Part shown: positions 10,901 through 24,975 of the stretch, in pieces
Layout: each line of letters opens with the position of its first letter
Position numbering within the stretch: the first letter of the stretch is position 1
Origin: Paenibacillus sp. FSL M7-0420
GTDB taxonomy: Bacteria; Bacillota; Bacilli; Paenibacillales; Paenibacillaceae
Direction: 5' to 3'
Assembly (NCBI RefSeq): GCF_038002345.1
Contig: NZ_JBBOCJ010000001.1
Location: forward strand, 7,192,001 to 7,256,000
Length of the DNA stretch: 64,000 bases
Translations under genes and position numbers: made by a program
The notes under the pieces: generated by a model
The model's input: the letters and a program-made list of their open reading frames with translations, nothing else
The model's database searches: none
What the model was told of the DNA's origin: nothing

Positions 10901-10985
10901 AAATGATCCTTACCTCCTACTTCAAATAACCGCTCAAAATCAGCACCATTAATCATAGAATATGAACTACACTTAAGCTACGGCA

Positions 10986-11020
10986 AATAGCACAAGCGAG
11001 TGGCTTGTGCTTTTGTTTCT
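10986..11020 (+). terminator. Hairpin repeat, copy A, with T-rich tail on the plus strand
   Basis: AGCACAAGC (10989-10997) pairs perfectly with GCTTGTGCT (11003-11011) and is followed by TTTGTTTCTT. It looks like a terminator, but no plus-strand gene ends here. Similar hairpins occur at 20276 and 29045. Confidence 0.55.
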
Positions 11021-15860: not shown

Positions 15861-15882
15861 GCTTTTCAGAAAAAACTTGCCC

Positions 15883-15899
15883 CTACTTATGATACGGTT
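15883..15899. repeat. 17-bp rlmH-end repeat, copy 1 (candidate att site)
   Basis: CTACTTATGATACGGTT is identical to the 3' end of rlmH (24496-24512) and to copy 2 (20551-20567), all in the same orientation. Read on the minus strand it encodes the rlmH C-terminus GEPYHK followed by TAG. The flanking bases TTCACCGGAA differ from rlmH but resemble copy 2. Confidence 0.7.
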
Positions 15900-15929
15900 C
15901 ACCGGAATGTTCCTTAAACTATGGTGCCT

Positions 15930-16796
15930 CTACCGGAAATTGTCTACACTCTCATGCAGAAAATCTTCCAGCTTGCGCGGCCCTCTGCCAAGCAAGCGCT
16001 GCACAGTGTCATTTGGACGTTCTGGAACCACCGTAGCCATGGATTGAATTTCCACCACGTGGTTCGCAAGCCAAGGAGGCATATGCCCGTGTTCGATAAG
16101 ATTACGGAGTAGCTCTTGGGGTTCCATGTTGATGTAACTTATTGGCCGATTAAGCAGGACGGATAGCCGGTCCGCGATCTGAGGATAGCTGAGAATCTCT
16201 GAACCCGTAAGCGTATATATTTGGCCTGATACCTCAGGGTTGGTTAGGGCTTCTGCAGCAACATCTGCGATATCCCGGCAGTCAATGTAGTTACACGGTG
16301 AATTGCCCATGGAGCCGAAGAAAGCATTTTGGGTTGTAATCGTTGGTACAAAGCGCATGATGTTTTGCATGAACGCATAAGGGCGCAACACGGTGTGGGT
16401 GAGACCTGATTCCCTCAGCACTTTCTCGATTTCCTGATGCCAGCCCGCGACTGCGACGGGAGAGCTCTGCTCAAAGGCAGGGCTGGATATTTTCACGATG
16501 TGTTTGATTCCAGATTCGCCTGCAATCTGAATGATTGAAGTTTCCAATTCGATTTGTCTTGGACTGTTGGACATGGCGAGGAAGAGCTGGCTGGCACCTG
16601 TAAATGCGCGGCGCAGCGATTCGGGGTCGGCAGCATCTGCCGATGCGACCTCGATAGTCGACCGGCCTTTTTCTCCGATCTGATGACGCAATTTCTCTGG
16701 GTCTCTGCTCAGAGCCCTGACGGGCACGCCAAGATCAACCAATCGTTCCACCAGCGCACTGCCTATCGTACCTGTTGCTCCCATAATAACTATCAT
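15930..16796 (-). CDS. NmrA-like NAD(P)-binding protein
   Basis: This 288-residue atypical SDR begins MIVIMGATGTIGSALVERLV, the NAD(P)-binding GxxGxxG loop of NmrA/HSCARG and azoreductase-like proteins. There is no SDR catalytic YxxxK where classical enzymes have it. Members act as redox-sensing regulators or as quinone or azo reductases. The C-terminal half (about 160-288) resembles the substrate lobe of this group. Its ATG overlaps the stop of the upstream membrane protein gene by four bases, so the pair is translationally coupled. A MarR-type operator lies before the pair, suggesting inducible expression. Confidence 0.82.
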   Translation of the reverse strand: MIVIMGATGTIGSALVERLVDLGVPVRALSRDPEKLRHQIGEKGRSTIEVASADAADPESLRRAFTGASQLFLAMSNSPRQIELETSIIQIAGESGIKHIVKISSPAFEQSSPVAVAGWHQEIEKVLRESGLTHTVLRPYAFMQNIMRFVPTITTQNAFFGSMGNSPCNYIDCRDIADVAAEALTNPEVSGQIYTLTGSEILSYPQIADRLSVLLNRPISYINMEPQELLRNLIEHGHMPPWLANHVVEIQSMATVVPERPNDTVQRLLGRGPRKLEDFLHESVDNFR

Positions 16797-17302
16797 TTTT
16801 CTCTTCTCCTTTTGGATAAAAAATTATTTGTGACGGCCAGACGCCACCGCCATGTCACTATCGTGCTTGCTATGAATCCGGACAACGGGAAATCGGTCCA
16901 GACGCGATCGACCCAGGCCAAGTGATGGCCAGGCATCATAAGTTCTAGTACACCAGATATCACCCATGCCACGCATAGGCCACACAAGGACCCGGCTAAT
17001 GCGAACCCTCCTAGCACAACCAAGTGAGGTGCACCTATGACCCATCGCATATGGCCCACTCGGCTGCGCAACAAAAGGCCCAGCATCAAGGCCATGAAGG
17101 CCGATGCACCGCCGATTGTGGTCAATGCCCCTATCTGAAGCCCCCTATCAGCAGTAACCAATCCCCCAATACCTGCCATGATGGCAGGAGCGACATAGGC
17201 CATTACAACTTCACGCCATAGTACAAAGGCCTTTTTTCTGGAACCCACAGTCTTGATACCATGAACATCATCTGTCTGATTCGGGTATTTCATCTGGTTC
17301 AT
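16793..17302 (-). CDS. Hypothetical four-helix membrane protein
   Basis: This 169-residue protein has a charged N-terminus of about 30 residues and then four membrane helices (about 32-52, 59-80, 92-118, 138-158). I do not recognise the family. The general look resembles small DUF4267- or DoxX-like proteins found with oxidoreductases. ATG at 17302 follows AAGGGAG and is preferred to the upstream ATG at 17332. It is coupled to the NmrA-like gene by a four-base overlap. The promoter region contains an inverted repeat that recurs in front of the MarR gene, so MarR probably controls both units. Confidence 0.6.
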   Translation of the reverse strand: MNQMKYPNQTDDVHGIKTVGSRKKAFVLWREVVMAYVAPAIMAGIGGLVTADRGLQIGALTTIGGASAFMALMLGLLLRSRVGHMRWVIGAPHLVVLGGFALAGSLCGLCVAWVISGVLELMMPGHHLAWVDRVWTDFPLSGFIASTIVTWRWRLAVTNNFLSKRRREK

Positions 17303-17360
17303 TTCGTTGCTCCCTTCTTTCTTAGAGATCATTCAATCAACGATACTTTCAGCGAAATAT

Positions 17361-17376
17361 AATTAGGAGCCTAACT
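17361..17376. promoter_or_regulatory. Candidate MarR operator, site 1
   Basis: AATTAGGAGCCTAACT is a near-perfect dyad (AGTTAGG/CCTAATT around two central bases). It matches site 2 (17985-18000) at 13 of 16 positions and lies about 60 bases upstream of the membrane protein start, near an AT-rich TATATAG stretch that could be its -10 box. Confidence 0.5.
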
Positions 17377-17432
17377 ATATAGGAGTAAAAATAGGCTAGC
17401 ATTACTAGCCCATTCTACTCATTACTGATGTT

Positions 17433-17984
17433 TCACTTTGGTTTCGTGCCTGGTTCGTCCGTAAGTGCAGAGATGCCTTGTGTAACCCGGCCTAGCAAGT
17501 CGAGGAATACGCTGCGCTCGTCTATACTGAGTAAGCCCACCGTGGCCTCCAGCCAAGCGAAATGCTCAGGAGCCATTTCACGTAGCTTCTTCGCTCCTTC
17601 TTCCGTCAAAATAACCGATCTCTGGCGGCCATCTTTTGAGCTTAAGCGTCTAGATACTAGGCCATCTCGTTCAAGAATGTCGATCAGACCAGTCACTGTA
17701 GCACGTGTAACGCCTAGATGCTCTGCTAATTGCGAAGGCAGCTCTTCTCCTTCGTAATCCTCAAGATCTGCCAATACACGATATCGGCCTGTTGATAAGC
17801 CGAATCTGGAGAAATGAATCTCCGAGGCCTGACCAAGCTGGGCTCCCGCTGCCATTAGCCTAGACGCGACGAGTATAGCCTGGGCGTCTATGTCCAGGTT
17901 ATAGCGATCAATCTGACGCTGGGATTGTACAAGGGAGGGAATAGCCTCCATGTCATTTATTTTTCTATTGTTCTTCATACACAT
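17433..17984 (-). CDS. MarR-family transcriptional regulator
   Basis: This 183-residue winged-helix regulator has the MarR core: LSTGRYRVLADLEDYE, then LAEHLGVTRATVTGLIDILERDGLVSR as recognition helix and SSKDGRQRSVILTEEG as wing. Dimerisation helices flank the core at both ends. ATG at 17984 follows TAGGTG at fair spacing. The reading frame is open to 18032, but that would run through the operator. The same dyad occurs at the start of this gene and upstream of the membrane protein/NmrA pair, so it probably represses itself and that pair and is released by a small aromatic or oxidant. Confidence 0.85.
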   Translation of the reverse strand: MCMKNNRKINDMEAIPSLVQSQRQIDRYNLDIDAQAILVASRLMAAGAQLGQASEIHFSRFGLSTGRYRVLADLEDYEGEELPSQLAEHLGVTRATVTGLIDILERDGLVSRRLSSKDGRQRSVILTEEGAKKLREMAPEHFAWLEATVGLLSIDERSVFLDLLGRVTQGISALTDEPGTKPK

Positions 17985-18000
17985 AGTATGGCACCTAATT
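17985..18000. promoter_or_regulatory. Candidate MarR operator, site 2
   Basis: Read on the minus strand, AATTAGGTGCCATACT lies immediately before the chosen MarR start and covers its weak ribosome-binding site. It matches site 1 at 13 of 16 positions. A position on the start codon would allow direct autorepression. Confidence 0.45.
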
Positions 18001-18064
18001 ACTTTCGTGTCAACAAGGAGATGCTCCCGCATGTCCCCACTTCAGACCGCCCTGCCGCTATGCC

Positions 18065-18946
18065 CTAATTAATATATTCCTGGCTGACCAGCAGCGAGTT
18101 AATTACTTCTGTCGGTATTACAAATTGAACAGGTCCCATAATTCCCGGAGCAACATCATATTCGTTAAAGGAAATAACCAATTTTCCGTCTGCATTAATG
18201 TAGAAGCTCTGAGTCTTCGAAATGCTGTCGAATCCACGTGTCGGATACTCCTCACTTTCGCCCTTTATCCAATAATGCTTATTATCTGGGTCCGCCTTCA
18301 TTTGCTCGTACATTTGCTCCTTGATATTTTCGCTGATAACAGATACATAACTTCCATCCTTGAAGAGACTTGGCAAAGTGAGCAGCACTTGATTTTTTTT
18401 GTCAATCGTATCGTATTTCATCGTTTCATAACCGGATGCCGCCGTTTGCACGACCCAGCGCCGAATAGAGAGAAGCTGATCCGTATCGGTGACAACCTCA
18501 TACCCGCTGTCTACTCCCATATTGGGTCTGCCCTTGTCCTTCAACTGATCAATCTCGGCCATGAATTCCTTGTACAGCTTTTGATCCTCCGCAATATACT
18601 TCTCGTTCAACATATCTTGCAACTTCATATCGGGCATATTCGTAATTGCTGGAACCTTCACATCCGCATGGTAGCCGTCTCCCTCCGCTGTATATTCCGT
18701 GAAGGTTACCAGCTTCACCAATGCACCGACAGCCGGCAGCTCTGACATGGATTGTGCAAACGTCGGGCTTATATTCACCCCAGACACGAACAGAGCAATC
18801 GCAGCTGCCGCCGAGCCAAGGTACCATTTGATGCTGCGTTTGCGCTGCGGGGCAGGCCGCAGCGATTGTGTGACGAGCGTATCCAATTCAGTAGGGATTT
18901 GTATATTCATATAATCTTGCTTGAGCTTTTCCATTTTTTTGTCCAT
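18065..18946 (-). CDS. rsiV: Anti-sigma-V factor RsiV-like protein
   Basis: This 293-residue protein has a short cytoplasmic N-terminus (about 1-38) that would hold the sigma factor, one membrane helix (about 39-62) and an outer domain ending in a DUF3298-type fold (SIRRWVVQTAASGYETMKYD, LPSLFKDGSYVSVISENIKEQ, FNEYDVAPGIMGPVQFVIP). In Bacillus subtilis RsiV binds lysozyme outside the cell, is cleaved by signal peptidase and RasP, and releases SigV. The start ATG lies one base after the stop of the sigma factor gene, the usual sigV-rsiV order. Genes for peptidoglycan O-acetylation (oatA) do not follow, unlike in B. subtilis. Confidence 0.82.
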   Translation of the reverse strand: MDKKMEKLKQDYMNIQIPTELDTLVTQSLRPAPQRKRSIKWYLGSAAAAIALFVSGVNISPTFAQSMSELPAVGALVKLVTFTEYTAEGDGYHADVKVPAITNMPDMKLQDMLNEKYIAEDQKLYKEFMAEIDQLKDKGRPNMGVDSGYEVVTDTDQLLSIRRWVVQTAASGYETMKYDTIDKKNQVLLTLPSLFKDGSYVSVISENIKEQMYEQMKADPDNKHYWIKGESEEYPTRGFDSISKTQSFYINADGKLVISFNEYDVAPGIMGPVQFVIPTEVINSLLVSQEYIN

Positions 18947-18947
18947 A

Positions 18948-19445
18948 TTAATAGGTCTCCTCTTGCTTCATATTGATGCGAAGAATTTTCAGTGCTTGAT
19001 ATAACCGGGATTTAACTGTGCTTAACGGTATATTGAGAACGAGAGCCACATCCTCCAGCTTCATATCCTCGAAGAACCTCAAAATAATGACTTCCCGATA
19101 CATCATAGGCAGCTCCTCTAAGGTCTCTGACAGATGCAAATCCTGAATCACATCATGATCATTCACTCCCTGCTGCTCCAGCACCTCATCAGCAACGGGA
19201 ACGAGCTTTTTTGCTCTCCGCAAATAATCGAGCGCCGTATTGACCACGATGCGGTAAAACCAGCTCTTTATGGATTCTGGCTTTGTCAGCGAATCGCTCT
19301 TGGTCAGCGCCTTCTGTATCGCATCCTGTACCACATCCATGGCGTTCTGCGGATGCTTTACATAGCTGTAAGCCAATCGGTACACATTCTCCTTGTAATC
19401 CCTCATAAATTCTGTCAATATCTTGTGAAATAGCTTGCTATTCAT
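18948..19445 (-). CDS. sigV: ECF RNA polymerase sigma factor, SigV-like
   Basis: This 165-residue sigma factor has region 2 (VYRLAYSYVKHPQNAMDVVQDAIQKAL, then IKSWFYRIVVNTALDYLRR) and region 4 (LPMMYREVIILRFFEDMKLEDVALVLNIPLSTVKSRLYQALKIL), and nothing else, as in ECF sigma factors. ATG at 19445 is read behind GAAGAGAGG and preferred to the TTG at 19448. The anti-sigma factor gene follows directly, which supports the SigV/RsiV assignment. An ECF-like promoter lies about 60 bases upstream and suggests positive autoregulation. The pair lies between two rlmH-end repeats, so it may be cargo acquired with the island rather than the core copy. Confidence 0.88.
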   Translation of the reverse strand: MNSKLFHKILTEFMRDYKENVYRLAYSYVKHPQNAMDVVQDAIQKALTKSDSLTKPESIKSWFYRIVVNTALDYLRRAKKLVPVADEVLEQQGVNDHDVIQDLHLSETLEELPMMYREVIILRFFEDMKLEDVALVLNIPLSTVKSRLYQALKILRINMKQEETY

Positions 19446-19506
19446 CAATAGGCCTCTCTTCCTTCTTTACTGCGCGCGCATTTCTTTATTTACCGCCTTT
19501 CATTAT

Positions 19507-19538
19507 GCAAGACGAATCAGACCGTGAAAAAGTTTGAA
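19507..19538 (-). promoter_or_regulatory. Candidate autoregulated ECF promoter
   Basis: On the minus strand a TTCAAAC -35-like element (19532-19538) is followed after 17 bases by CGTCTTG (plus-strand GCAAGACG, 19507-19514). AAC and CGTC at this spacing are the hallmark of SigV/SigW/SigX-type promoters. Confidence 0.45.
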
Positions 19539-19751
19539 GCCATAATTTTCTGCGAATTGCGAAATGCCATAGCCGATGTCGTCAACCATATTTTCAAAGT
19601 GAGGATGCAAGAGGTTTGGGGTGAGGGTACAACGTCCTGCGCGGATCAGTACCTCATGACGGAATGAGGGATCAACAAATTTCCAATATAACCTATACGT
19701 TTGCACTTGGTGACAGCGACGCTGGTATTACCCCATTTAATAATGCAGGAT

Positions 19752-20168
19752 TCAATCATATATTATATTTTTTCCTTCTTCAGTCAGTTTTTTCAAAGAT
19801 GTAAGCATATGATTTATTTCCTCATCGGAATGTCTTTCCCATGAACTTAATTCCGCTACTATTTTCAGAGGCGATTTAGACCTGTATGAACGTGTTGGGT
19901 TTCCTGGAAATCTTTTATCTGTTAAGTTTGGATCATTCTCGAAATCACCTACGGGCTCCACAATATAAATTCTCTCTTTTGAATTAGATTTTGCCAATTC
20001 AGCCCCCCATTTAGCAGCGTCTAAGGTTGCAGTAAAATATATATGATTAGATTTTTTATCCTGATAATTGGATACATACAATGGTTCAAGCAAGTCTCCT
20101 ATCTTCAATGCTGCTTTAGTCCCATGAAAAAACGGACCTGGATCTAAGATGTTTTTTTTGTCATTCAT
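19752..20168 (-). CDS. arr: NAD(+)--rifampin ADP-ribosyltransferase
   Basis: This 138-residue enzyme transfers ADP-ribose from NAD to the 23-hydroxyl of rifamycins and inactivates them. The family signatures are all present: FFHGTKAALKIGDLLEPLY with the NAD-binding His15, HIYFTATLDAAKWGAEL with Tyr44, IYIVEPVGDFENDPNLTDK with Asp79, and FPGNPTRSYRS. These match His19, Tyr49 and Asp84 of the mycobacterial Arr at a constant offset of four to five residues. The length is right for the family. ATG at 20168 follows AGGGGTG. It stands alone between two rlmH-end repeats, which suggests acquisition with an integrated segment. Confidence 0.93.
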   Translation of the reverse strand: MNDKKNILDPGPFFHGTKAALKIGDLLEPLYVSNYQDKKSNHIYFTATLDAAKWGAELAKSNSKERIYIVEPVGDFENDPNLTDKRFPGNPTRSYRSKSPLKIVAELSSWERHSDEEINHMLTSLKKLTEEGKNIIYD

Positions 20169-20275
20169 ATAGGCACACCCCTTTTTGTTTTAGACTTTCG
20201 TTTAAGAGTATACGGCTATAGGGGCGCAAAAAGTAGTCTATAAAATAATTCCAAACCCGGTTAACTACTGCAAAA

Positions 20276-20305
20276 AGCACAAACCAATGGCTTGCGCTTT
20301 TGTTT
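20276..20305. terminator. Hairpin repeat, copy B
   Basis: AGCACAAACC (20276-20285) pairs with GGCTTGCGCT (20289-20298) using two G-U pairs, with A/T runs on both sides, so it can act in either direction. It belongs with the hairpins at 10989 and 29045. It lies in the 600-base gap between arr and the DUF1989 gene. Confidence 0.5.
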
Positions 20306-20353
20306 CTAACGAACTTTTTTGCCCTCGTTAATGGGGAGGGGAAGGAGTTAGAG

Positions 20354-20437
20354 ATGATAACGGACGAGGATATGAAGAGAGTGATGAGACGGGCGAGTGA
20401 GGTTTTGGAGGAGTTGTGTTGGAGGATGGGGATGTAG
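20354..20437 (+). CDS. Possible 27-residue peptide
   Basis: In the gap between arr and the DUF1989 gene, ATG at 20354 follows AAGGAGTTAGAG, a strong ribosome-binding site at good spacing. It opens a short frame with a charged, probably helical sequence starting MITDEDMKRVMRRASEV. The region is purine-rich. No family is recognised, and no promoter was found, so it may be chance. Confidence 0.3.
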   Translation: MITDEDMKRVMRRASEVLEELCWRMGM

Positions 20438-20550
20438 AGAGAGGTACTCATAGCGAGGAAAATACCTTTTAGCGCTATTGTGAATTTACTTTCCATAAAT
20501 CAAGAAGAGCCAGACCAGTCACATGTCTGACTCTAACTTTCCGCTTACTA

Positions 20551-20567
20551 CTACTTATGATACGGTT
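20551..20567. repeat. 17-bp rlmH-end repeat, copy 2 (candidate att site)
   Basis: CTACTTATGATACGGTT is identical to copy 1 (15883) and to the end of rlmH (24496). On the minus strand it ends a short frame reading NQLGAIKISLYKCYGKPYHK and stop, which resembles a diverged rlmH C-terminus. The adjoining TACGGT-TT-ACCGTA dyad is not present in rlmH. Confidence 0.7.
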
Positions 20568-20716
20568 TACCGTAACATTTATAGAGCGAAATTTTAATGG
20601 CACCTAATTGATTGACCTTATCCACTAGTCGCTATTAAGGCGTTGGTTCCCCCGGCCCCTAATAAGATAGATCTCTTTTCTCATAGCTATAATGGCTCTT
20701 ACTATGCATGACTTTT

Positions 20717-20746
20717 TTGACAAACAGCCATACTAACTTGTATAGA
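20717..20746 (+). promoter_or_regulatory. Promoter of the DUF1989 gene
   Basis: A perfect TTGACA (20717-20722) is followed after 18 bases by TATAGA (20741-20746), 28 bases before the start codon at 20774. It fits a vegetative sigma-A promoter. Confidence 0.6.
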
Positions 20747-20773
20747 CTATGAACATCCAAGAGGAGATTACTG

Positions 20774-21364
20774 ATGACTGAACAACAATGGCTGATACCA
20801 GCAACGCAGAGATTGGGCTTCAAGCTGGACAAAGGGCAGATCGTCCGAGTGACCGATGTGGAGGGAGAGCAGGTTGCTGATTTTACTGCCTATAATGCCT
20901 CTCGCCCCAATGAGCGGATTGATCCCGGCGTAACGATAGATGCTCTCGGGAAGATAAATGTAATGCCAGGAGACATCCTCTATTCCAATCAATATAGACC
21001 CTTACTTACAATTATGAAGGACACCGTGGGCCGCCATGATTTCATTAATTCTGCCTGCCGTCCCGAGATGTATGAGGTGTTATATAACAGAAAAGATCAC
21101 GCCAGCTGCTACAACAACCTAAATGAAGCCCTGAAAGAGTTTGGTCTGCCCGCTCCCGATCAGCATTATCCATTCAATCTTTTTATGAATACCGTCATTG
21201 AGCCTTCCGGAAAAGTTAGCGTGGAGCGTCCGCTATCTAAAGCAGGTGATTACATTGAATTGCGGGCTGAGATGGACCTTATTATTGCTATATCTGCTTG
21301 CCCCTGCTCCGAAAGTGCTTGCAACGGTTACAAATGTACCCCTATTGCGGTGAAGATCCTTTAG
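20774..21364 (+). CDS. DUF1989 (urea carboxylase-associated) family protein
   Basis: This 196-residue cytoplasmic protein has the DUF1989 features: GQIVRVTDVEGEQVADF near the N-terminus, a GRHDFINSACRPEMYE block and the C-terminal cysteine motif SACPCSESACNGYKCTPI. The cysteines and histidines suggest a metal site. Family members are encoded with urea carboxylase and guanidine-degrading or transport genes, but their own reaction is not well established. ATG at 20774 follows AGAGGAG, with a good promoter upstream. The genes downstream on the same strand encode a LysE exporter and a YqcI/YcgG protein, which together point to metabolism or export of an amino-acid-like nitrogen compound. Confidence 0.85.
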   Translation: MTEQQWLIPATQRLGFKLDKGQIVRVTDVEGEQVADFTAYNASRPNERIDPGVTIDALGKINVMPGDILYSNQYRPLLTIMKDTVGRHDFINSACRPEMYEVLYNRKDHASCYNNLNEALKEFGLPAPDQHYPFNLFMNTVIEPSGKVSVERPLSKAGDYIELRAEMDLIIAISACPCSESACNGYKCTPIAVKIL

Positions 21365-21449
21365 AATCCATTAAGCTCGTCTTCTATCTGGCCCACTTTT
21401 TGAATAGAATGACTTGTACAAGATACTTCTCATTCAAGGGGCGATGTCC

Positions 21450-22076
21450 ATGAATAGCTTTTTAACCTATATAGTGCTAGGGATTTCTTTATCTGCACCT
21501 ATGGGCCCCATCAATGTAGCCCAGCTCGATCGGGGAGCGCGGATGGGATTCTTGCAATCCTGGATGATCGGACTGGGCGCCATGTGTGCAGATTTAGTAT
21601 ACATGCTGCTCATCTACTTTGGGCTAGCGCACTTCCTTAATACCCCATTCATGAAAACCTTCCTGTGGACTTTCGGCAGCTTTGTTCTTCTTTATACCGG
21701 GATTGACACCTTAAAAAACATGAATACCGCTTCCCAAACCGCCTTGCGCGGTGAACAGACAAGCATCAGCGCCTTTCATTCTGGATTTCTGATGGCACTG
21801 ATGAACCCCCTCAGCATTTTGTTCTGGTTAGGTATTTACGGCTCAATTCTGGCCAAAAGCATGGAGAATCAACAGTTCGATCAAGTGCTGTGGAATAGCA
21901 TTGGTATTTTTGTTGGCATCTTATTCTGGGATCTGGTAATGGCAATGATATCCAGTTTATTCCATCAGTTTACCGGCCCTGCTGTACTTCGATTCATTTC
22001 CCTTGCGGCTGGCATTTGCTTGCTTAGCTTTGGTCTGTATTTCGGATATCAGGCATTTATACAATTGTTCGCCTAA
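21450..22076 (+). CDS. LysE-family amino acid exporter
   Basis: This 208-residue membrane protein has six hydrophobic helices and the family opening LTYIVLGISLSAPMGPINVAQLDRGARMGFLQSWMIGLGAM, followed later by LMALMNPLSILFWLGIYGS. LysE/RhtB exporters remove lysine, arginine, homoserine or related compounds from the cytoplasm. ATG at 21450 follows AAGGGGCG; the frame is open to 21414 but that start has no ribosome-binding site. The substrate cannot be read from the sequence. It follows the DUF1989 gene by 85 bases and precedes the YqcI/YcgG gene by 92, all on the plus strand. Confidence 0.88.
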   Translation: MNSFLTYIVLGISLSAPMGPINVAQLDRGARMGFLQSWMIGLGAMCADLVYMLLIYFGLAHFLNTPFMKTFLWTFGSFVLLYTGIDTLKNMNTASQTALRGEQTSISAFHSGFLMALMNPLSILFWLGIYGSILAKSMENQQFDQVLWNSIGIFVGILFWDLVMAMISSLFHQFTGPAVLRFISLAAGICLLSFGLYFGYQAFIQLFA

Positions 22077-22168
22077 TAAGTTCACCTGGCAAGAGTGTTT
22101 CTATGCTTTCACCCATCCCCCTTCTAGCGCATAGGATGTTTTGTGCGTAACGAGGAGGGTGTTTTAGG

Positions 22169-22942
22169 ATGGTCTATTTGAAAACAAAGCAATGGCTGGA
22201 TGAACATATGTCCGAGATACCGGACTGGCAACAGGATGCTTTTCGCCAATTTACAGCTATGATTGCAGATCCCGAAGGGAAATATCCCTGTATTCCGGGA
22301 AGGCAGGGTTTTTTGTCTAATCATTTACGTTTTGGATTTGCAACTGATCCACGAAACGAAGCGTCAACTTTGGAAGTCGCCGATTTCCTTCGCCAATATG
22401 GCGAGTGCTCGCGGGATACCGGCAAATATGCTTCACTTGTTCTCTTTTTCGAAACTCCGGAAGATTTAGCAGAGGGCCGCTCCATTGAGGACAATGAAGC
22501 TTTGTTCTGGTCCGTCCTGAGCCGCGTCAGCGCGGTAGATACAGTACCTTGGCCGGATCAGATTTCTACAGACCCCTCGAACCCTTCCTGGGAGTTCTGC
22601 TTTGATGGGCAACCATATTTCGCCTTTTGTGCAACCCCGGCACATCAGTTGCGGAGAAGCCGCCATACTCCTTATTTTGTGATTGCCTTTCAGCCTCGAT
22701 GGGTATTCGAAGATATTAATGATTCTACTGCATTTGGCCGCAATATGAAGAAGCTAATCCGCAAGAAGCTTGCCGACTACGATAGTATTCCCGCGCATCC
22801 TTCCCTTAAATGGTATGGGCAGGAGAACAATTTGGAATGGAAGCAATATTTTCTACGCGATGACGAAAGTGCACCCTCTAAATGTCCCTTTACGTATATG
22901 AAGAACAAGTTCAAAGGACTAGGAACCAAATTCCACTCTTGA
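22169..22942 (+). CDS. YqcI/YcgG family protein (possible heme-dependent N-oxygenase)
   Basis: This 257-residue soluble protein matches YqcI/YcgG: KYPCIPGRQGFLSNHLRFGFA near residue 35, SWEFCFDGQPYFAFCATPAHQLRRSR in the middle, YFVIAFQPRWVFE and a C-terminal PSKCPFTYM. The family contains heme enzymes that hydroxylate guanidino nitrogens, for example GntA of guanitoxin synthesis and DcsA-related arginine N-hydroxylases. The Bacillus members themselves are uncharacterised. ATG at 22169 follows GGAGGG. Its 3' end meets the permease gene head-on four bases away. Conserved His and Cys residues would be the candidates for heme ligation; that function is inferred from the family. Confidence 0.85.
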   Translation: MVYLKTKQWLDEHMSEIPDWQQDAFRQFTAMIADPEGKYPCIPGRQGFLSNHLRFGFATDPRNEASTLEVADFLRQYGECSRDTGKYASLVLFFETPEDLAEGRSIEDNEALFWSVLSRVSAVDTVPWPDQISTDPSNPSWEFCFDGQPYFAFCATPAHQLRRSRHTPYFVIAFQPRWVFEDINDSTAFGRNMKKLIRKKLADYDSIPAHPSLKWYGQENNLEWKQYFLRDDESAPSKCPFTYMKNKFKGLGTKFHS

Positions 22943-22946
22943 AAGC

Positions 22947-24257
22947 TTAAAAAAGCTGTCCGCGCTTCTTCCCGTGATGCTGCTTAAACCAAGTGATCAA
23001 AATAATAATACCGACGAGCAGAAGGCTAGACCAGAAGCCGGGACGACCGCTTTTCTCTAAGAGTACACCTGCCACGGCAGCAATAATCAGCACCATAGCG
23101 ATACTCGATCTGATCCATCCCCCCATCTTCGGCTTCAATAACTTAAGGTACGAAGCTAAGATGAATAGCCAAGTGTACAAAATAACTAATCCTGCCGCTG
23201 TGGTGATATGCTCGAATATTTGCTTCGGCAGCAGTACGCCTAGCACAATCGTCACGCACAGGCCCAGCGTATTAATGCCAAGTGCGTAGATCGGCAGTTT
23301 TCTTTTCCCTTTGGTCACCGCTAGCCAGGAAGGAGCATCTTTATCCTCAGCCAAGGCTACCAGCATAGTTGAGACCGCGTACAATGATGCAACGAGGATT
23401 GAGAATCCGGCCACTATCATTACTCCATTTAGCACATACACAAGGATGGGTAGGCCCATCGCTACAAGTGCAGCAATTATTGAGCTTTGGGCAGGAGTTA
23501 CTTTCTCAGGACTGACGAATAGCAGCGCAAGCCCTATAGACAATACATATAGTATGGTCACCCCTAACAGCATAAATCTTCCTGCTTTTGGAGCTTCTTT
23601 CGGATTACGTAGATCCGCCGCCATAAAGCCCATCACCTCAATGCCTCCAAAAGCATAGAACGCATAGAGTAGCCCTTTCCAGGCCCCTATCCATCCTTTA
23701 TTCAGCCATGCTTCCAGGCTGTAAACCGTAACCCAGTTTCCCTTCCCCCTCACAAGTGCGGCCACGGCGACCCCTATGAACGTCAGCACAGCTGCGATTT
23801 TGATCATGGCAAATAAATTTTCCGCTTTATTAATCCCTCTGCTACCTAGAAGAATAACCAGCAGCCCCAGCACTGTATAAAATAAGGTGAAACTCCAAAG
23901 TGGCCAACTGGGAAACCATAACCGCGAGAACAGTCCCAAGGCAGTCAATGAACTCCCGATTATTAGAATCTCTGAACACCAATAGATCCAGCCCATACTG
24001 AAGCCGGCCCAGCTACCAAAAGCATCTTTGGCATAACTGCGGAAAGATCCCTTTTGAGGATTCTGCATCGTCATTTGACCCAAGGCTTCATAAACGAATA
24101 AAGCTGCTATAGCGGCTAACACAAAAATAACCAACACCAATAATCCGCTTTTTCGGATAGCGATGCTGGAACCAAGAAAGAAACCGGTGCCAATCGTGCA
24201 GCCAACACCAAATAAAGTTAACTGCCACCAGGGTAATTTACCTGTTGGAGTACCCAA
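22947..24257 (-). CDS. APC-superfamily amino acid permease
   Basis: This 436-residue transporter has twelve hydrophobic helices. The first reads WWQLTLFGVGCTIGTGFFLGSSIAI, the unwound GxxIGTGFF substrate motif of amino acid/polyamine antiporters, and FYAFGGIEVMGFMAADLRNPKEAPKA is the matching helix 6 segment. It resembles GabP/ProY-like proton symporters for neutral amino acids or GABA. The start appears to be TTG at 24257, ten bases after GGGAGGG; there is no better ATG nearby. It is convergent with the YqcI/YcgG gene. It lies directly next to rlmH, inside the inner interval between rlmH-end repeats. Confidence 0.88.
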   Translation of the reverse strand: MGTPTGKLPWWQLTLFGVGCTIGTGFFLGSSIAIRKSGLLVLVIFVLAAIAALFVYEALGQMTMQNPQKGSFRSYAKDAFGSWAGFSMGWIYWCSEILIIGSSLTALGLFSRLWFPSWPLWSFTLFYTVLGLLVILLGSRGINKAENLFAMIKIAAVLTFIGVAVAALVRGKGNWVTVYSLEAWLNKGWIGAWKGLLYAFYAFGGIEVMGFMAADLRNPKEAPKAGRFMLLGVTILYVLSIGLALLFVSPEKVTPAQSSIIAALVAMGLPILVYVLNGVMIVAGFSILVASLYAVSTMLVALAEDKDAPSWLAVTKGKRKLPIYALGINTLGLCVTIVLGVLLPKQIFEHITTAAGLVILYTWLFILASYLKLLKPKMGGWIRSSIAMVLIIAAVAGVLLEKSGRPGFWSSLLLVGIIILITWFKQHHGKKRGQLF

Positions 24258-24495
24258 AATCTATAATCCCTCCCTCTGCTTCTGCTGTTACTATGTGCTT
24301 CGCAGTGTTATTCTATTCCGCAATAGAACGATGGGAAAGTCTGTGCTGCAAATGATGGGTGCGACAGCGCAACTTAAAAGGGTACAAATCTCTCAGAACG
24401 TAAGTCTCGGAATGCGTGAGCGTAGTAAACAGGGTAAGTTCGTGGAATCTTGAAAAACTATAACTACATTGGAAAAATTCAATACTAATTTCGCC

Positions 24496-24975
24496 CTACT
24501 TATGATACGGTTCCCCCCTATTAATCTTCACCGCCCGGTACACCTGCTCCACCAGCACCAGGCGCATGAGCTGGTGGGGCAGCGTCATGCGGCCGAAGCT
24601 CATGCGCTGCTGGGCGCGGCGCATGACTTCATCGGAGAGGCCGTGGCTGCCTCCGATGACGAAGACGACGTGGCTCGTCCCGTAGGTGCCGAGCCGGTCG
24701 ATCTCGGCGGCAAGCTCCTCGGAGCTCCAGAGCTTGCCGTCAATCGCGAGCGCAATGACATGCGCCTCGCTCTTAATCTGCGCGAGGATACGTTCGCCCT
24801 CGCGCACCTTCACCTGAATAACCTCTGCGTCGCTGAGGTTATCAGGGGCCTTCTCATCCGCCACCTCAATCATCTGGAACTTGAGGTAGGGCGTGAGCCG
24901 TTTGGCATATTCTGCGATGCCGAGCGTCAGATACTTTTCCTTCAATTTTCCTACGCTTATCAGTTGAATTAACAT
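24496..24975 (-). CDS. rlmH: 23S rRNA (pseudouridine1915-N3)-methyltransferase RlmH
   Basis: This 159-residue SPOUT methyltransferase methylates N3 of pseudouridine 1915 in helix 69 of 23S rRNA using S-adenosylmethionine. It shows the family start [27 protein letters not shown], the SAM-binding [13 protein letters not shown] knot, the substrate region [25 protein letters not shown] and the C-terminus GEPYHK. ATG at 24975 follows GGAGGAAC. In staphylococci the last codons of this gene (orfX) are the integration site for SCC elements; here the same 17 bases occur twice more downstream. Its GC-rich codon use contrasts with the AT-rich genes that follow. Confidence 0.97.

Follow-up and report, generated by a model that had tools for sequence, protein, structure and literature searches.

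The stretch analysed here, referred to as the window, is 64,000 nucleotides of the genome of Paenibacillus sp. FSL M7-0420 (contig NZ_JBBOCJ010000001.1, positions 7,192,001 to 7,256,000), and the subject of this study is the 3' end of its rlmH gene together with the copies of that gene end and the small gene clusters that lie behind it. The arrangement recalls the staphylococcal cassette chromosome (SCC), whose elements are best known for carrying methicillin resistance. The host gene rlmH, recognized as an open reading frame with a Pfam SPOUT_MTase match, occupies 24496..24975 on the minus strand and encodes a protein with the C-terminus GEPYHK. Its 3' end, including the stop codon, is one of three exact copies of the repeat CTACTTATGATACGGTT, found at 15883-15899, 20551-20567 and 24496-24512 on one strand, with their starts spaced 4,668 and 3,945 bp apart. 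The reading developed below is that these repeats are probably attachment (att) sites of an SCC-type system at which passive cassettes, lacking a ccr recombinase gene of their own, were stacked one behind the other.

Three copies of the rlmH end

The original prediction, made from the window's sequence, had described three identical rlmH-end repeats in one orientation as the marks of serial SCC-like insertion, and both their positions and their orientation proved exact. The window holds no further copy at up to three mismatches, and 100 shuffles gave a mean of 0.10 matches and never three. A search of the whole genome (G000, 7.67 Mb), proposed at the time as a check, returned three matches to the 14-mer core CGTATCATAAGTAG at up to one mismatch, all of them exact and all of them the copies in the window. 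The reversed control pattern gave seven genome matches at up to one mismatch, so it is the exactness and the clustering of the repeats that carry weight; by simple arithmetic, about 0.06 exact copies of the 14-mer would be expected by chance.

The full site, GAACCGTATCATAAGTAG as read along rlmH, has 18 bp and is placed in each case on the minus strand. Site 1 (24496..24513) comprises the last codons and the stop codon of rlmH, and site 3 (15883..15900), with the dyad CCGGT/ACCG, shares all 18 bp with it, opening in GAACCG. Site 2 (20551..20568), with the dyad TTACGGT/AAACCGT, opens in AAACCG instead; its first base, position 0, is G in P. silagei and in 192 of 197 sites collected across the genus, the A at position 1 being imposed by the search pattern. 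As had been predicted, a dyad of the form ACGGT/ACCGT flanks both outer copies and is not present at the rlmH copy. A weight matrix built on 116 sites from other sequences, with those of the window excluded, ranked the three sites as the top three in the window, with 50.6 for site 2 (at 20568), 47.5 for site 3 (at 15900) and 31.8 for rlmH. The runner-up, at 13.5, is the reverse reading of the site 2 dyad, and five single-base shuffles of one strand reached at most 1.5. A chance origin of the repeats was rejected on their exact and unique copies and on this ranking.

The two intervals between the repeats

A direct repeat with the TATCATAA core bounds both ends of each of the two intervals. Interval 1, between sites 1 and 2, is a recombinase-less unit of about 3.94 kb (20569..24512), here called cassette 1. 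It opens with the start terminus GGCGAAATT (24487..24495, minus strand), the inverted partner of the end terminus AAATTTCGC (20586..20594, minus strand), which was located by terminus pairing and by the weight matrix. The resulting imperfect terminal inverted repeats, GGCGAAATT/AATTTCGC, have a pairing score of 8, a value also reached by about 11% of permuted pairs. Cassette 1 is an att-bounded, ccr-less unit adjoining rlmH, as are those called pseudo-SCC or ccr-less composites. Its cargo, correctly named beforehand and confirmed by Pfam, consists of an amino-acid permease (AA_permease, 22947..24257, minus strand), a YqcI/YcgG family protein (22169..22942, plus strand), a LysE-type translocator (21414..22076, plus strand) and a DUF1989 protein (20774..21364, plus strand). 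Cassette 1 and site 2 recur together in P. silagei (G050) at 97% identity, and the cassette 1 genes are present at 82-83% in G038, G057, G058 and G079 (genomes, contigs and loci are given by their working labels G, C and L).

Interval 2, between sites 2 and 3, is of a different make. Directly behind site 2 comparison with other genomes identifies flank-type DNA (20261..20550, minus strand), of which 20550-20325 is also found next to a site in P. silagei and G009, and some of it close to the gene of a U32 peptidase in G041 and G058. In the window this flank is shortened and then joined to 20323-20261, a copy of a stretch upstream of the U32 gene. The terminator-like stretch concerned is nearly duplicated within the window, at 20261-20323, where it is displaced behind site 2, and at about 10950-11020, upstream of the U32 peptidase gene. 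The remaining genes are all on the minus strand. They encode an Arr-ms family rifampin ADP-ribosyltransferase-like protein (19752..20168), a sigma factor with Pfam Sigma70_r2 and r4_2 matches that is probably of the extracytoplasmic function (ECF) type (18948..19448), a DUF4179/DUF3298 protein that is a probable anti-sigma factor (18065..18946), a MarR regulator (17433..18032), a hypothetical protein for which the Pfam scan gave no match (16793..17332) and an NmrA-like protein (15930..16796). Pfam agrees with the cargo first proposed for this interval, namely Arr, SigV/RsiV (here the sigma factor and the DUF4179/DUF3298 protein) and MarR, and adds NmrA; the NmrA and MarR module is nearly complete in at least 19 other genomes.

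At its far side interval 2 closes in a cassette end terminus (15901..15926, minus strand) that is common to G046 and P. silagei. The match to the window extends up to GGTGAACC in G046, which carries this cassette end within an array of its own, and up to GGTGAAC in P. silagei, and both diverge thereafter. Because these two genomes share the end and then part, site 3 can be taken from the sequences as a genuine cassette end, yet the interval between sites 2 and 3 is a composite. The idea of two cassettes framed by the repeats therefore stands for interval 1, where the termini match, and fails for interval 2 as one clean cassette, as its termini are unpaired (4.5 against 8) and the end towards rlmH (20567-20325) consists of flank DNA common to P. 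silagei and others, leaving only the far end genuine. Beyond site 3 a start-type terminus, GGGCAAGTTTTTTCTG (15867..15882, minus strand), recognized by the weight matrix and by genome comparison, may open a further unit; a far end matching it was not found in the window.

These observations bear on a more restricted account, in which cassette 1 is the sole SCC-like relic still in place, while site 3 and the NmrA/Arr region derive from a rearranged neighbouring array. It differs from the stacking of cassettes only on interval 2, where the unpaired termini and the flank-type DNA behind site 2, common to P. silagei, G009, G041 and G058, are what it would lead one to expect. Set against it are the score of 47.5 at site 3 and the occurrence of the same cassette end inside the G046 array and in P. 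silagei, from which it follows that the region of interval 2 has a cassette origin, even if it has ceased to be a single unit. We regard this restricted account as having a substantial chance of being right, though one that falls clearly short of even.

Sites, relatives and recombinases across Paenibacillus

Among 100 Paenibacillus genomes, the window's own included, at least one site was found in 98, at least two in 88, at least three in 75, at least five in 50 and at least ten in 18. Together they hold 540 sites, with a maximum of 14 per genome, against six matches for the reversed control. The search pattern includes the opening G and so misses site 2 of the window, whose genome is counted as having two. 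Placement was followed in 24 genomes assembled in one or two contigs, a set that leaves out G028, for which no rlmH place is listed, and G086 onward. Of their 145 sites, 22 are rlmH ends and 56 lie on the same strand within 120 kb downstream of rlmH, where about one would be expected; over the same distance the other side and the other strand have none. Random scatter of the core, which the original prediction had counted against itself, is not what is seen, with 56 of the 123 non-rlmH copies downstream of rlmH, but the other 67 lie elsewhere, 41 of these in small same-strand secondary clusters. In G017, outside the 24-genome set, a site is placed 12 kb upstream of rlmH with a Ccr-type recombinase gene beyond it (C1:7002161 and 7006439, L162), contrary to the usual downstream order. 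Because of this site and the 67 elsewhere, it would be wrong to say that sites occur only downstream of rlmH.

Secondary clusters far from rlmH are found in G049 (C1:534992-554627, L207-L208), G058 (C1:4011089-4024554, L209), G067 (C1:4820648-4842611, L210-L211, containing a Ccr-type recombinase gene), G072 (C1:610374-647579, L212-L213) and G069 (C1:5072977-5079713, L214). Those of G049 and G072 open at short open stretches (L207:4900-5010 and L212:2300-2392) that end in AFKIQ(R/H)GEPYHK, like a detached C-terminus of RlmH. The array of G023 has 13 sites, 10 exact and three with one mismatch, over about 74 kb; all PF07508 (large serine recombinase) matches of this genome are on other contigs. 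The same array, in L173, contains a second, diverged piece of rlmH (C25:112283-112626, 61-73% identity) that ends in a site. A separate survey of 79 named loci, from which L073 was left out because its contig stops before the rlmH end, found a further same-strand copy of the locus's own rlmH end, at up to one mismatch, downstream within the sequence covered in 12 of them (14 copies) and upstream in none. The sole extra copy on the opposite strand is in L011, 9.1 kb downstream of rlmH. Outside Paenibacillus, extra copies of the rlmH end occur at one locus each in Cohnella, Cytobacillus, Neobacillus and Bacillus.

For the anatomy of the sites, 197 distinct examples (79 rlmH ends and 118 others) were collected from 17 array stretches and 150 further loci. 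In the 118 non-rlmH sites the dyad is centred between positions 0 and 1, the GA of GAACCG, with 43.8% symmetric pairs against 30.6% at the next best centre. For the 79 rlmH ends the five best centres do not include this one, and another reaches 40.1%, so that the figure of 43.8% alone is not decisive. Intervals, with a median length of 4.5 kb (n=90) in fetched stretches whose shortness favours short intervals, tend to open with a terminus (GGCGAAATT, GGGCAAGTT, CGGCTAAAT and others) and to close with its reverse complement some 18-26 bases before the next site. Across 88 of the 90 intervals, the two left out ending in an rlmH-type site, termini of the same interval pair with a score of 6.40 against 5.37 ± 0.17 when permuted, a value that none of 5000 permutations equalled, and a score of at least 8 was reached by 26 of the 88 where 9.5 would be expected. 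The stop codon of a site is likewise associated with the start terminus that follows it (mutual information 0.717 versus 0.341, 0 of 2000 shuffles), and more weakly with the preceding sequence (137 of 2000 shuffles at -24..-22 and 24 of 2000 at -6..-4). Among the inner variable positions only Y11 is associated with the three bases that come next (4 of 2000), and the remaining three are at most weakly associated with either side. From the association of stop codon and terminus, it seems that part of the right side of each site travels with the cassette behind it.

Two comparisons between relatives show where homology breaks. In P. silagei, homology to the window (93.5% until there) ends 2 bp after rlmH and is followed by 6.7 kb of other DNA. 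This insert has a large serine recombinase split over two frames beside rlmH (L004:15349-16864), an uninterrupted 590-aa relative of which is found in G001, and three proteins of 366, 446 and 543 aa without a Pfam match (L004:10695-15112). Since the 6.7-kb insert at rlmH has no second site at its junction with cassette 1, where about 56 bp of the cassette also have no counterpart, P. silagei cannot serve as a plain empty site. The centre of site 2 reads AA in the window, and P. silagei has GA there; should GA be the crossover, site 2 of the window would pair poorly with rlmH.

The second comparison is closer. Two cassettes are common to G057 and G079, with 98-99% identity, and G079 has two extra ones, of 2,038 and 1,611 bp, between rlmH and the shared pair, with homology resuming exactly at position 0 of a site. 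The end codons of rlmH differ in the manner that insertion predicts, CCT..TAG standing at rlmH in G057 and farther out in G079, where rlmH itself ends CCG..TGA. A 304-bp interval between two sites is present in G057 and not in G079; the aligned block there starts four bases before the site. The cargo in this pair is small (AraC with DUF4386; a protein without a Pfam match; a collagen-like protein with a glyoxalase; MarR with an aldo/keto reductase), and neither genome has a match to the CcrB profile at E <= 1e-40.

That the copies are short and identical, and that second rlmH-like fragments exist in G023 and at secondary sites, might suggest that homologous recombination or gene conversion spread the repeats from rlmH and that mobile units are not involved. 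Against such spreading stand the long dyad and the termini that the outer copies share and rlmH does not have, the pairing of termini within intervals, a breakpoint exactly at position 0 and the Ccr homologues of sibling arrays described next, and we consider it very improbable.

The statement that the window holds no ccr gene can be extended to the whole genome, in which no protein matches PF07508 at E <= 0.001; element-borne ccrAB or ccrC, by which SCC elements proper are recognized, is missing by this search. Two resolvase-domain proteins (199 and 223 aa) were set aside as agents, the nearer one being 164 kb away. Tyrosine integrases are known to use rlmH in other bacteria, and the genome has 14 PF00589 matches from which such an agent could come. 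The nearest of these is 155 kb from rlmH, which led us to reject a tyrosine integrase near rlmH in the window's genome, the one searched for PF00589; dyads centred on a dinucleotide and the Ccr homologues in sibling arrays fit serine recombinases, and use of the rlmH end by a tyrosine integrase has hardly any likelihood here.

In sibling genomes the picture is different, with PF07508 matches in 23 of 27. Some of these proteins are encoded inside or beside site arrays, several of them as adjacent pairs, in G011 and G017 and also in G009 and G025, where the contigs end. Seven array recombinases have CcrB or CcrC as their best NCBIfam match, at 236-424 bits, far below the 900-bit equivalog cut-offs, and are Ccr homologues by profile rather than CcrB or CcrC themselves. 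Against these profiles, nine proteins of the genus from outside arrays score no more than 70-170 bits, and for three of them XisF is the best match. In 30 genomes of one or two contigs, every one of which has at least one site, the CcrB profile gave 27 matches at E <= 1e-40. Eleven of them, in five genomes, score at least 232 bits, nine lying between listed sites and two (in G087) within 5 kb of rlmH; the other 16 score at most 226 bits, and none of the 12 that were compared with listed sites lies between clustered sites. The remaining 25 of the 30 genomes have no CcrB-profile match of at least 232 bits. At the level of the genus, Ccr-family recombinases are present within arrays as profile homologues below the curated equivalog cut-off.

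Probable stacking of cassettes and its relation to known systems

The reading that best joins these observations is that passive, ccr-less SCC-like cassettes are stacked at rlmH and moved in trans, the repeats being att sites of an SCC-type system, with the outer copies carrying element ends as originally proposed; we give it a probability of about 0.86. One end of such a cassette would consist of the last rlmH codons and a start terminus, for example GGCGAAATT or GGGCAAGTT, and the other of the inverted terminus, closing in a dyad that has a GA dinucleotide at its centre. At this GA a large serine recombinase of the Ccr family would join the circular cassette to the rlmH end, so that the new cassette gives rlmH a new 3' end and older cassettes are displaced outward. 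Cassette 1 would be a unit of this kind without a recombinase of its own, and site 3 would mark the far end of a second such unit, its start having been removed by rearrangements. Because the genome lacks a large serine recombinase, the cassettes would either have been moved in trans or have lost the recombinase-bearing member of their array, leaving them stranded. What can be read directly from the sequences is the sites, their dyads, the pairing of termini across arrays, the base-exact breakpoints in relatives and the presence of Ccr homologues in siblings and their absence here; strand exchange at GA, action in trans and circular intermediates we infer from these.

Several points weigh against this reading. 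The genome of the window has no recombinase, and the support comes from comparison of sequences, not from excision. Besides the limits stated above for the pairing score of cassette 1, the dyad symmetry and the NCBIfam scores, the gap between array and non-array matches to the CcrB profile is narrow (232 versus 226 bits), the sites, drawn from related species, are not independent of one another, and among five variable site features a clear link to the next terminus is seen for the stop codon alone, with a weak one for a single inner position. The termini of interval 2, at 4.5, pair below the permuted mean of 5.4, the insert of P. silagei lacks its second site, and G017 has a site on the wrong side of rlmH. 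In G057, G058 and G079 the cassette 1 genes are 66-81 kb away from rlmH, have no sites at their ends and stand in the other order relative to the VOC/AsnC genes; their different placement speaks for movement, yet shows that the gene cluster is not always cassette-borne. Finally, homologous recombination of a longer donor stretch through shared flanks could also have produced the difference between G057 and G079, although the primary event behind it still has to be site-exact.

The system shares with SCC the insertion at the 3' end of rlmH, an 18-bp direct repeat ending with the stop codon (here GAACCGTATCATAAGTAG), imperfect terminal inverted repeats and units in tandem. It differs in its Paenibacillus host, in a genome without a large serine recombinase, in its short intervals (median as given above) and in the many sites per genome. 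The staphylococcal site GAAGCATATCATAAATGA likewise has 18 bp and ends with the stop codon (PMC8407400), and both S. haemolyticus (PMC3637587) and S. sciuri (PMC8407400) are reported to have SCC remnants or elements that lack known ccr genes. Recombination of attP with attP is reported for CcrA/CcrB (PMC3783163) and could help cassettes to recombine with one another. The island of Staphylococcus brunensis, related to SCC and with ccr-type genes, lies outside rlmH (PMC10581047), and the secondary clusters found here are also away from rlmH, a likeness by description and not by sequence. The Enterococcus cassette chromosome (ECC) resembles the present arrays in its ccrAB homologues, its rlmH 3' site, the TATCATAA core, a dyad in attR and several attR, the last in 16 of 32 elements; it differs in that its elements are 21-78 kb long and carry ccrAB, with fewer than five sites per genome (PMC6222049). 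Tandem ECCs with several ccrAB were not observed directly in the parts of that study considered here.

Nearest of all are the SCC-like islands behind rlmH that are reported from several Bacillota, among them a composite in P. pinistramenti with tandem islands, more than one rlmH-end repeat and two tabulated large serine recombinases (PMC10061031); genus, site and tandem arrangement are the same. That paper is a study of primases with one Paenibacillus example, and its parts considered here contain no count across the genus and no recombinase-less arrays. The original prediction had offered a new element class in Paenibacillus as one possibility. This is not needed, as sibling genomes have Ccr homologues in the same kind of array and the Paenibacillus composite is in print; the kind is already known from that report and from the SCC and ECC literature. 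Beyond this composite, the literature searched yielded no account of the genus-wide scale, the many recombinase-less arrays or the secondary arrays in Paenibacillus, and both this scale and the large number of sites without a recombinase seem to be new.

A wider proposal is that these arrays amount to gene capture across the genus in the manner of integrons, whose gene cassettes form arrays of small recombinase-less units with one attachment site each. Small recombinase-less cassettes with an SCC-type attP half would form arrays at rlmH and at secondary sites, a Ccr-bearing minority would serve them in trans, and each insertion would rewrite the last codons of rlmH. The likeness to integrons is one of functional analogy only, the recombinase family of the sibling arrays being serine and not tyrosine, and we offer the proposal tentatively, at only just under an even chance.

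The landing site of SCC and a related recombinase family here serve a soil genus on a larger scale, with two or more sites in 88 of 100 genomes. This makes the movement in trans of ccr-less cassettes, the position of the crossover and the relation of Paenibacillus-type arrays to staphylococcal SCC testable questions, for which the base-exact difference between G057 and G079 is a ready natural experiment.

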